From contig NZ_BJVK01000001.1 in assembly GCF_007989105.1 (NCBI RefSeq), forward strand, positions 62,001 through 126,000: a DNA stretch of 64,000 nucleotides, in the 5' to 3' direction. Shown here piece after piece: positions 12,764 to 51,475 of the stretch; position 1 is the stretch's first letter, and every line of letters starts with the position of its first letter. Both the position numbers and the translations under genes were made by a program. Below the pieces are notes generated by a model. That model did no database searches and was not told the DNA's origin. It saw only the letters and a list, made by a program, of their open reading frames with translations. This stretch comes from Lentilactobacillus kefiri. GTDB taxonomy: Bacteria > Bacillota > Bacilli > Lactobacillales > Lactobacillaceae.

Positions 12764-13606
12764 TTAATTGTGATTTTTAAAATAGTTTGCAATTCCGTTG
12801 ACAACATCGGTTGCAAGCTTTTTTTGATAGGCTGGACTTTTAATTTGCTTGAAGTCTTTACTGGTGTTGATGTAACCGCCTTCAATCAGAATGGCCGGAA
12901 CTGAATTGTCTCTGATTACCAGGAAATTGCCAAATTCAGTTCCCCGAGACGGTACTGGTAAGTTGGTCATCTTTTTGTTAACCGATTCAGCCAACTGTTT
13001 TGAATCACCATCGTGATAGAAGTAGCAGGTGTATCCGGAGGCAACGTTATTTTCATCCGACGAATCAAAATGAAAACTGACAAAGATGTTGGCTGACGCC
13101 GAGTTGGCGACTTCCGGTCGGGCAGCTAACGGCACTGTTTTATCGGAACTCCGCGTCATCACAACCCGGGCGCCCCTTGCCTGAAGTTTTCGTTCAACAC
13201 GTTTGGCAACCTGTAAAGTAAACTTTTTTTCGGGCTGGCCGGACATCGAAAGGGCACCGGTATCTGAACCGCCGTGGCCGGGATCCAGTACGATTGTCGC
13301 CTCCGACAGGCGGGTGACGTTTTGCACGTTGCTGTTTTGAACCAACCAAGCTGCGACCCAGCCGGTTGTCTTGTGTTTGTAGATCACTTTAATCCAGTTG
13401 CTCTTTTTACTGATGACCTGAAGGCGTTGGCCCTGCTTAACTTTTGCCCTAACGGAGTAGGTCACGGAAGGGCCGCTTCGAATATTTAATTGATTAACCT
13501 TTACGGTCACTGAATTGGCTTCCAACGAAAGAATCAATATCACAAAAGTGATGATGATTGCCAGGGTTGCCACGATCCAGCTTTTATTTTCCCAAATTCT
13601 TTTCAA
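12764..13606 (-). CDS. N-acetylmuramoyl-L-alanine amidase with SH3 domain
   Basis: Cell-wall hydrolase that cleaves the amide between MurNAc and the stem peptide. The 280-residue protein has an uncleaved signal or membrane anchor (about 10-30), a bacterial SH3 domain (about 32-82, with LNIRSGPSVTYSVRAKV), and an Amidase_3 zinc domain (about 104-278) with LDPGHGGSDTGA, VSFHFDSSDEN and ILIEGGYINT carrying zinc ligands and the catalytic Glu. Start is TTG at 13606, with GAGGGA about 8 bases before it. It is divergent from the hisS leader and probably monocistronic. Confidence 0.92.
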   Translation of the reverse strand: MKRIWENKSWIVATLAIIITFVILILSLEANSVTVKVNQLNIRSGPSVTYSVRAKVKQGQRLQVISKKSNWIKVIYKHKTTGWVAAWLVQNSNVQNVTRLSEATIVLDPGHGGSDTGALSMSGQPEKKFTLQVAKRVERKLQARGARVVMTRSSDKTVPLAARPEVANSASANIFVSFHFDSSDENNVASGYTCYFYHDGDSKQLAESVNKKMTNLPVPSRGTEFGNFLVIRDNSVPAILIEGGYINTSKDFKQIKSPAYQKKLATDVVNGIANYFKNHN

Positions 13607-13726: not shown

Positions 13727-13943
13727 CAGTTAAACATTCAACCGATAAAAAGAACTATCGTTATGGTTGGCTTCCAGAGAGCATTCATTTGGTGAAAGAG
13801 TGCGTCAATTATTTCGAAGTGACACTTTTTGCTAATAATGGTTAATAGCGAAATGCTATTCGTGCGAGCGTTATCCTTGAGAAATAATTAAGGTGGTACC
13901 GTGCGCATTGCACCCTTGTCTTCGGACAGGGGTCTTTTTTTTC
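13727..13943 (+). promoter_or_regulatory. T-box leader of hisS-aspS with GACAC specifier
   Basis: tRNA-sensing riboswitch. Stem I is closed by AAAAAG pairing with CTTTTT (13825-13830). The 3' side of the specifier loop reads GTGACAC; aligned with the Gly T-box in this window (ATGGCGC), the specifier is GAC (13821-13823), an Asp codon, overlapping CAC (13823-13825), a His codon. The T-box core AAGGTGGTACCGTGCG is at 13890-13905, and the terminator stem ACCCTTGTC/GACAGGGGT at 13912-13933 is followed by eight T. Uncharged tRNA would stabilise the antiterminator and switch on both synthetase genes. The remaining bases between 13607 and 13691 are A/T-rich with no other feature seen. Confidence 0.9.
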
Positions 13944-13969
13944 GGAAATAAAAGTGGGAGGAAACAATT

Positions 13970-15277
13970 ATGAGATATCAACGACCAAAAGGAACGGCTG
14001 ATATTTTACCAGGCGAAGCTCAAAAGTGGAATTACGTCGAAGAGACTGCCCGGATGCTGTTTAACGATTATCGTTATCAAGAGATTCGGACACCAATGTT
14101 TGAAAACTTTGATGTCTTTTCCAGAACGTCTGGTGATACTTCCGACGTTGTAACAAAAGAAATGTATGATTTTAAAGATAAAGGTGACCGACACATGAGC
14201 CTTCGTCCTGAAGGGACTGCAGGGGTTGTTCGAGCCTTCGTTGAAAACAAATTGTATGGTCCGGAACATCCACGTCCAGTTAAAGTCTTTTACATGGGTT
14301 CGATGTTCCGATATGAACGACCACAATCAGGCCGTCAGCGTGAATTTCATCAAATCGGTGTCGAAGCTTTTGGAAGTGACGAACCCGAATTAGATGTTGA
14401 AGTCATCGCTATGGGGATGGATTTGCTGCAGCAATTTGGTTTATCCAACCTGCGGCTTGAAATCAACACCCTTGGGGATCAAGAATCCCGGGATGCTTAT
14501 CGTCAAGCTTTAATCGATTATCTTGATCCACACTTTGATGAGTTGAGTGATGATTCAAAAGTTCGGCTTCACAAGAATCCACTCCGAGTGCTTGATAGTA
14601 AAGATAAACGCGATAAGGAAATCGTTAAAGATGCACCTTCAATTTTGGATTATCTTGACGAAAAATCCCAAAAACATTTTGATCGTGTTAAGAGCTTACT
14701 CAAAGCTTTGAATATTCCTTACGTCATCGATCCGGATATGGTTCGGGGACTGGATTACTACAACCACACAATCTTTGAAATTATGGTGGATTCAAAGGCC
14801 CTTGGCGACGGATACACAACTATCTGTGCCGGCGGCCGTTACAATGGCTTGGTTGAGCAGCTTGGCGGACCTGAAATGCCCGGAATTGGTTTTGGCCTTG
14901 GCATGGAGCGTTTGATGGTATTGATGGAGGCCCAGGGCGTTAAGTTCCCAGTCCTTGATCAACTGGATGCTTATGTTGTTGGAATTGGTGAACAAACCAG
15001 CGTCTTGACCCTTCAAATTGTTCAGGCATTGCGTGCCGACGGCTTTGCTGTTGATCGGGATTATCTTGATCGGAAACCCAAAGCGCAGTTTAAGACGGCT
15101 AATAAGTTGAACGCTCAATACACAATTACCGTTGGTGAGAGTGAGTTGGAGAATAAGACAGCCAATGTTAAACAGATGCGTACAGGTAAAGAAGTTACCG
15201 TTTCACTTGCTTCAATTTTCAAGGACTTTGATGATATCATTGCCAAATATTTTACAGATGATGAGGAGATTGATTAG
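13970..15277 (+). CDS. hisS: Histidyl-tRNA synthetase
   Basis: Class II synthetase that charges tRNA-His. The 435-residue protein opens with [18 protein letters not shown] and carries motif 2 ([25 protein letters not shown]), the histidine-binding motif [25 protein letters not shown], motif 3 ([11 protein letters not shown]), and a C-terminal anticodon-binding domain (about 330-425). ATG 13970 follows GTGGGAGG. aspS starts 2 bases after its stop, and the T-box leader governs both. Confidence 0.97.
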
Positions 15278-27733: not shown

Positions 27734-27953
27734 TGAAATGAATAATTCAACGATGACAAAAGAAATTGTCTAATGGATTTTTAAAACGAGATCAGGATAG
27801 TGTGAGCTGATTAAAATTTATTGGACGAATGGCGCTTTTCGAGTTGAACAATTAAGTGCTGGTAGCAATACCAGAAGTAGGGTGGAACCGCGATTTCATC
27901 GTCCCTATGTTGAGTGGCTTAGTCTATAAGTCGTTGAACATAGGGACTTTTTT
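27734..27953 (+). promoter_or_regulatory. T-box leader of glyQS with Gly (GGC) specifier
   Basis: tRNA-Gly-sensing leader. The 3' side of the specifier loop reads ATGGCGC, giving GGC (27831-27833). The canonical T-box core AGGGTGGAACCGCG is at 27879-27892. The terminator is GTCCCTATGTT (27901-27911) pairing with AACATAGGGAC (27937-27947), then six T. Uncharged tRNA-Gly is expected to favour readthrough into glyQ. Confidence 0.93.
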
Positions 27954-51282: not shown

Positions 51283-51301
51283 TGAATTAAATAAATTGGT
51301 T

Positions 51302-51475
51302 TATCTTCAGGGCAGGGTGTGATTCCCGACCGGCGGTGATAGTCCGCGACACACGAGAGATCGTGCTGAGCTGGTGAAATTCCAGTGCCGACAGTAAAGT
51401 CTGGTATGTAGAAGATTAAATTTTACACGCTTTTTGTAATGCCCTGACAAATTCTTTTTGTCAGGGCATTATTTT
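51302..51475 (+). promoter_or_regulatory. FMN riboswitch (RFN element) with terminator, upstream of ribU
   Basis: The aptamer spans about 51302-51416 and includes the conserved blocks TCAGGGCAGGGTG, GATTCCCGACCGGCGGT, AGTCCGCGAC, GGTGAAATTCCAGTGCCGAC, AGTAAAGTCTGG and ATGTAGAAGAT. The expression platform is a terminator: AATGCCCTGACAAA (51438-51451) with TTTGTCAGGGCATT (51457-51470) and a T-rich tail. FMN binding is expected to turn off riboflavin uptake. Confidence 0.95.

Follow-up and report, generated by a model that had tools for sequence, protein, structure and literature searches.

The hisS-aspS T-box leader of Lentilactobacillus kefiri: an Asp specifier with an overlapping His codon, compared across Bacilli

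The leader of the hisS-aspS operon of Lentilactobacillus kefiri carries an Asp codon (GAC) in its specifier loop, and the last base of this codon, C13823, is also the first base of a His codon (CAC). Because both synthetases are encoded downstream, it was asked whether this RNA responds to one tRNA or to two. The leader is located in a 64,000-nucleotide stretch of DNA (the window), between an opposite-strand open reading frame starting at 13606 and hisS at 13970. A sequence-only reading of the window had proposed that one leader could sense two tRNAs by a register shift, and had added that two-codon T-boxes had been proposed in Firmicutes. Such a proposal is indeed in print. An excerpt of PMC5313534 gives GACAC as the characteristic specifier-loop sequence of hisS-aspS T-boxes, and reports that Gutierrez-Preciado 2009 suggested an interaction mainly with aspartyl-tRNA. 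In an excerpt of PMC4342826, which cites the same work, the leader was suggested to take two alternative structures, sensing tRNA-His and tRNA-Asp. Neither the motif GACAC nor the proposal of dual sensing is thus new for hisS-aspS leaders. In operon, GACAC, dual-sensing idea and Asp preference, the Firmicutes T-boxes described in these excerpts are all like the present one, with no difference of substance, and the window leader is another species' copy. The transamidation operon of Clostridium acetobutylicum likewise has a two-codon T-box, with overlapping codons in one specifier loop and two candidate tRNAs (Saad et al. 2013, as described in an excerpt of PMC4052509). That RNA concerns tRNA-Asn and tRNA-Glu, both of which are reported to be bound, whereas the window leader concerns Asp and His, is known from sequence, and is one for which comparison argues against the need of a second codon.

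The hisS-aspS leader is an ordinary tRNA-sensing T-box (Table 1). It exhibited a full-length covariance match, a UGGNACC bulge with flanking helices and a competing terminator, and its specifier GAC fits the downstream pathway, with tRNA-Asp(gtc) in the genome and aspS downstream. In the antiterminator, AAGG (13890-13893) pairs with CCUU (13914-13917) and GUGC (13901-13904) with GCAC (13910-13913), enclosing the bulge UGGUACC (13894-13900), the variable base N of which is U13897. The 5' strand of the terminator (13912-13942) is common to the antiterminator (13890-13917). The sequence-only reading was therefore accurate on the T-box itself (RF00230 match at 13733-13920, antiterminator and terminator), on GAC in the canonical specifier position with CAC overlapping it, and on an operon coding for both HisRS and AspRS. 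It had also regarded the core as slightly different from the canonical form. This was the case, but not as a sign of a special T-box: of the 70 Lactobacillaceae hisS leaders having a core, 64 share AAGGTGGTACC, and the changes were matched on the partner side (AAGG-CCUU, GUGC-GCAC). The unusual core is the family norm, and was rejected as a mark of a special T-box.

Table 1. Coordinates of the leader and of the two genes behind it (positions in the window)
Feature	Position	Strand	Basis
T-box leader, Stem I to antiterminator	13733-13920	+	RF00230 over model positions 1-219 of 219, 53 bits, E 6.2e-11; contig positions 75733-75920
Lower Stem I helix below specifier loop, 5' strand AAAAAG	13747-13752	+	partner CUUUUU 13825-13830, minimum-energy fold of 13733-13845
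Stem I apical part, AGAGAG bulge and GGUG loop letters	13776-13794	+	aligned to RF00230 consensus
Specifier codon GAC (Asp)	13821-13823	+	sequence; GAC/GAT there in 132/164 Bacilli hisS leaders
CAC (His) overlapping GAC	13823-13825	+	sequence; CAC/CAT in 51/70 Lactobacillaceae leaders
Lower Stem I helix, 3' strand CUUUUU	13825-13830	+	minimum-energy fold; test of pairing in 133 other leaders
Antiterminator, 7-base bulge flanked by AAGG/CCUU and GUGC/GCAC helices	13890-13917	+	read from sequence
AAGGTGGTACCGTGCG, T-box core	13890-13905	+	sequence
Intrinsic terminator, UUCG-loop hairpin and U run, overlaps antiterminator	13912-13942	+	sequence; fold of 13872-13945, z -2.11
hisS, histidyl-tRNA synthetase, 435 aa	13970-15277	+	ORF
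aspS, aspartyl-tRNA synthetase, 595 aa	15280-17067	+	ORF

The gene name hisS was assigned from the sequence. HisRS matches were obtained in 150 of 151 family genomes (Lactobacillaceae) and 197 of 200 class genomes (Bacilli). Of the named loci, those of Levilactobacillus, Secundilactobacillus and Apilactobacillus had the HisRS nearest to that of the window. The gap between hisS and aspS is two bases, and the related asnS model TIGR00457 also matches aspS weakly. For comparison, 180 hisS loci were fetched, chosen by hand from about 300 among the matches listed, in most cases with one or two from each genus or family. With the window included, a T-box core was found before hisS in 164 of 181 loci, and an AspRS match followed in the fetched stretch after 161 of these 164 leader-bearing hisS genes. 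The other 17 loci, without a core by a loose pattern, were dropped; at least four of them, the stand-alone hisS loci L048, L052, L098 and L102, do carry a core of the form GGTGG(A/G)ACAG. One locus of the window's own genus (L034, genome G133) had hisS without a T-box core and without an aspS match in the fetched stretch, and differed in the core and aspS from the window and three congeners (L031-L033). The score of the leader, 53 bits, is lower than the RF00230 gathering score of 93, so that the leader is absent from a default Rfam scan of the window. This would be the argument for a chance resemblance without T-box function, a reading to which we attach a negligible probability. Among the 37 T-box matches of this genome, 26 were likewise below 93 and 11 reached it; the E value of 6.2e-11 was obtained over the full model; and the recurrence of the core before hisS, together with the presence of both antiterminator and terminator, also speaks against chance.

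The minimum-energy fold of 13733-13845 left GACA unpaired, and C13825 was paired with G13752 to give the AAAAAG/CUUUUU helix, so that the loop reads GAA-GU-GAC-A-C. Counted from the 3' end of the specifier bulge, the specifier occupies positions 2-4 according to the excerpted TBDB paper (PMC7778990), and in this loop those positions are GAC. The alignment with the Gly T-box of the same window, on which the sequence-only reading had relied, also holds (GAA-T-GGC-G-C-TTTT there and GAA-GT-GAC-A-C-TTTTT here). Nevertheless, single-sequence folding was ambiguous on the register. The pairing probability of G13752-C13825 was 0.49 in 13733-13845, and in the longer stretch 13727-13871 C13825 preferred G13800 (0.62), in a competing fold where UGACAC pairs with upstream bases. 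Ensemble energies for freeing CACU and GACA were -21.94 versus -23.42 kcal/mol in 13733-13845, and -31.11 versus -30.82 kcal/mol in 13727-13871, where the His register came free of cost. Within 13797-13830, UGACACUUU would base-pair in this alternative fold with AGAGUGCGUCA, which lies 5' of it.

The start of the lower helix was examined in the 133 of 164 leaders having an AGTA anchor, the window being among the 31 left out. Placing the start of the helix at the second post-codon base gave good pairing in 39 of the 133 leaders versus 13.8 by shuffling, the best of four offsets. A start one base later was likewise above shuffling (24 versus 10.9), and the first and fourth offsets were rarely good (3 versus 1.7 and 2 versus 3.2, respectively). 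In a fixed-loop comparison the two offsets were close, with 2.88 and 2.69 pairs of 4. When the helix was chosen on the other pairs (49 leaders), the base was a C facing G in 32 and a T facing A in 7, with no standard pair in 10. On these results, the lower Stem I helix probably begins at the third base of CAC.

The specifiers of the 164 leaders were then compared. Automatic reading failed for some loci, and 27 of the 164 were assigned by hand from the sequence; for 80 named loci, whose automatic readings were in some cases low-scoring, only the readings quoted here were used. Among 70 Lactobacillaceae leaders, the codon place was GAC in 69 and GAT in one. GACAC was found in 49 and GACAT in 2, and the remaining 19 were without a His codon (GACGC 4, GACAG 4, GACGA 2, GACAA 2, GACGT 2, GACCA 2, GACTG 1, GACCC 1, GATGA 1). 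The 94 leaders of other Bacilli were mostly AACAC (29), GACAC (21), GACAT (18), GACAA (9), GACCT (5) and GACCC (5), with AACGC (2), GACTT (2), GACAG, AACAT and GACGA (1 each) as rare types. Over all 164 leaders the codon place was GAC/GAT in 132 and AAC in 32; CAC/CAT was missing in 42 of the former and 2 of the latter. The His codon was lost, for example, in Aneurinibacillus (GACAA), Exiguobacterium (GACCC) and Lapidilactobacillus (GACCA), and the Asp codon in several Bacillaceae genera and Planococcaceae. An AspRS match lay downstream of 40 of the 42 GAC/GAT leaders without CAC/CAT, the exceptions being L059 and L312. Both codons were thus not consistently retained in homologues (42 of 132). 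GACAC was not kept as five bases either: the case named beforehand as refuting the two-tRNA idea, GAC kept with the next two bases varying, was found in many genera. Strict dual sensing was rejected as the main reading, as these 42 leaders contradict a need for CAC/CAT. Lineages without the His codon and lineages without the Asp codon provide a testable handle on dual sensing, which, to judge from the excerpts cited above, has so far apparently only been suggested in print.

To judge how special the overlap is, T-boxes of other specificities were read by eye as controls (pheS in 27 of 30 and tyrS in 25 of 30 Lactobacillaceae loci; pheS in 22 of 29 new loci of other Bacilli). In Lactobacillaceae, the codon was followed by A(C/T) in 17 of 27 pheS (TTC) and 12 of 25 tyrS (TAC) leaders, together 29 of 52, versus 51 of 70 hisS leaders. 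In other Bacilli the values were 16 of 22 for pheS versus 69 of 94 for hisS. Fisher p values for CAC/CAT in hisS versus controls were 0.056 (Lactobacillaceae) and 1.0 (other Bacilli). In genomes having both leaders, CAC/CAT was found in 19 of 23 hisS versus 15 of 23 pheS leaders (p 0.34), and in 16 of 23 hisS versus 10 of 23 tyrS leaders (p 0.18). A modest excess was obtained for the exact motif, with GACAC in 49 of 70 hisS leaders versus NNCAC in 23 of 52 controls in Lactobacillaceae (p 0.005, relatedness uncorrected); in matched genomes the excess of exact CAC had p values of 0.039 versus pheS and 0.146 versus tyrS. The five letters GACAC are real, but T-boxes that specify other amino acids also frequently have CAC/CAT at this place. 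Most of the GAC/CAC overlap would thus be largely generic to T-boxes and need no special explanation, although given the modest excess of exact GACAC some selection for CAC possibly remains. General two-tRNA sensing by a single leader was therefore not supported, in view of the GAC/GAT leaders without CAC/CAT and of the common overlap in pheS and tyrS T-boxes. More broadly, A-C follows specifiers of any kind with some ordinary frequency, and this background has to be taken off before two-tRNA sensing is deduced from overlapping codons.

In the bulge sequence UGGN, N is the base opposite the discriminator of the tRNA. It was found to be T in all 70 Lactobacillaceae hisS leaders; the 132 GAC/GAT leaders comprised 108 with T, 23 with C and one with A. 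In the window's genome tRNA-Asp has G73, and tRNA-His has C73, opposite a G-1 with which C73 can pair. Because U wobbles with G and cannot pair with C, N = U is compatible with tRNA-Asp, unlike tRNA-His. N = U was also usual in the Phe and Tyr T-boxes read, so that it speaks against His without proving Asp. The Lactobacillaceae leaders of the His type belong to the same RNA class as the window leader, and the stand-alone hisS leaders also precede the same type of gene; they mostly have CAC/CAT as codon and A or G as N, whereas the window leader has GAC and U. Thus, among 28 hisZ-homologue leaders (of 29 loci, L151-L179, with no His codon found in the right place by the pattern used in L154, L155 and L179), 14 had N = A, 10 had G and 4 had T, i.e. 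A/G in 24 of 28; L151-L171 alone gave A 14, G 3 and T 4. The four hisS genes without adjacent aspS (L048, L052, L098 and L102) had CAC, not GAC, as codon, with N = A, A, A and G, respectively. In six of the hisZ-type loci (L172-L174 and L176-L178) the HisZ-like matches lie inside open reading frames of 537-555 aa, behind leaders with CAC and the core GGTGGGAACAC; these frames possibly encode a fused or extended protein. According to the excerpted TBDB paper (PMC7778990), a match to the discriminator is not required in His T-boxes.

From the anatomy, the position and conservation of the codon and the compatible acceptor pairing, all of which were observed directly, we infer the bound tRNA and the switch. 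The leader is likely to be a transcription-antitermination T-box that senses uncharged tRNA-Asp via GAC and induces hisS and aspS jointly. Uncharged tRNA-Asp would base-pair at two sites: the anticodon GUC at GAC in the specifier loop of Stem I, and the 3' end at UGG(U) (13894-13897), where U opposite G73 would form a wobble. Binding would hold the antiterminator against the terminator, and HisRS would be carried along by the Asp signal. The CAC overlap would arise because T-box specifiers usually precede an unpaired purine, mostly A, and then the C of the G-C pair closing the lower helix. The best reading of the His register of this leader is that it is incidental or weak; a His response, weaker or lineage-specific, may exist.

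We consider it improbable that the leader is a dual sensor, in which GAC would serve tRNA-Asp, CAC would serve tRNA-His after opening of G13752-C13825, and either shortage would induce both synthetases. This idea is in print for hisS-aspS (PMC4342826, as excerpted) and has a precedent in the overlapping Asn and Glu codons of C. acetobutylicum (PMC4052509, as excerpted). It would also agree with an operon making both enzymes, with the excess of exact GACAC over controls and with the modelled cost of freeing CACU, which is small in 13733-13845 and nil in 13727-13871. But GAC/GAT without CAC/CAT occurs in 42 of 132 leaders, with AspRS downstream in all but 2; the identical overlap is seen in Phe and Tyr T-boxes; the acceptor base differs from that of His-type leaders; and the 2009 authors favour Asp according to the excerpt of PMC5313534. 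Still far less probable is a His-specific T-box with CAC as the working specifier and GAC incidental. Although hisS is the first gene of the operon, and Staphylococcus workers name the hisS-aspS leader a histidine T-box in an excerpt of PMC7927825, GAC/GAT was present in 70 of 70 Lactobacillaceae leaders and CAC/CAT missing in 19 of them. Moreover, the third base of CAC probably begins a helix, and His-type leaders of Lactobacillaceae mostly have N = A or G.

Against the Asp reading stand the 32 of 164 leaders with AAC at the codon place, 30 of them with CAC/CAT; Asp therefore cannot be cognate in those lineages. All 16 leaders read in family f6 (L124, L131, L134, L270-L282) had N = A, with AACAC in 15 and AACAT in 1. 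Seven named leaders with a core (L429, L436, L444, L445, L448, L450 and L462) likewise all had N = A, with AACAC in 4 and AACAT in 3. Their genera (Lysinibacillus, Kurthia, Sporosarcina, Planococcus and Bhargavaea) we take to be Planococcaceae, and f6 was taken as Planococcaceae on the likeness of its leaders only. In AAC-type leaders outside f6, N was C in 12 and T in 4. The A of the Planococcaceae leaders is the commonest base of the Lactobacillaceae His-type leaders. In the one f6 genome whose tRNAs were read (G305), tRNA-Asp and tRNA-Asn have G73 and tRNA-His has C73, so that the A of UGGA pairs with none of them. In G305, where 25 T-boxes were found, N = A occurs in four more, which stand before genes read as cysteine, glycine and threonine (two) synthetases. 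The tRNAs of cysteine, glycine and threonine have U73.

These leaders could be imagined as the product of an evolutionary stepping stone, in which an ancestral Asp leader GACAC became AACA(C/T), cognate to His by a two-base register shift with the loop architecture unchanged, and Planococcaceae would be the switched lineage. On the sequences compared we regard this as rather unlikely. If it were true, intermediate GACAC leaders such as that of the window would keep a weak His response. Alternatively, the Planococcaceae leaders would be of the Asn type, their acceptor-pairing base being left unmatched. Among the papers listed in a literature search, none was evidently about the Planococcaceae AACA(C/T)-UGGA variant. 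The retention of CAC/CAT in 30 of the 32 AAC-type leaders was discarded as support for His, as the pheS T-boxes of such genomes had TTCAC in 7 of 8 cases (L331, L333, L335, L337, L346, L349, L351 and L353; a ninth, L342, was unreadable). The absence of AsnRS was also dismissed as a cause of AAC, since 24 of the 27 genomes searched had AsnRS above the cut-off, including 15 of 17 from AAC-type families.

Elsewhere in the window, the Gly T-box (GAA-T-GGC-G-C) was matched at 27744-27909 with 72.8 bits, below the Rfam gathering score, and the gene after it reads as glycyl-tRNA synthetase alpha. An FMN riboswitch was found at 51299-51420 (102.5 bits).
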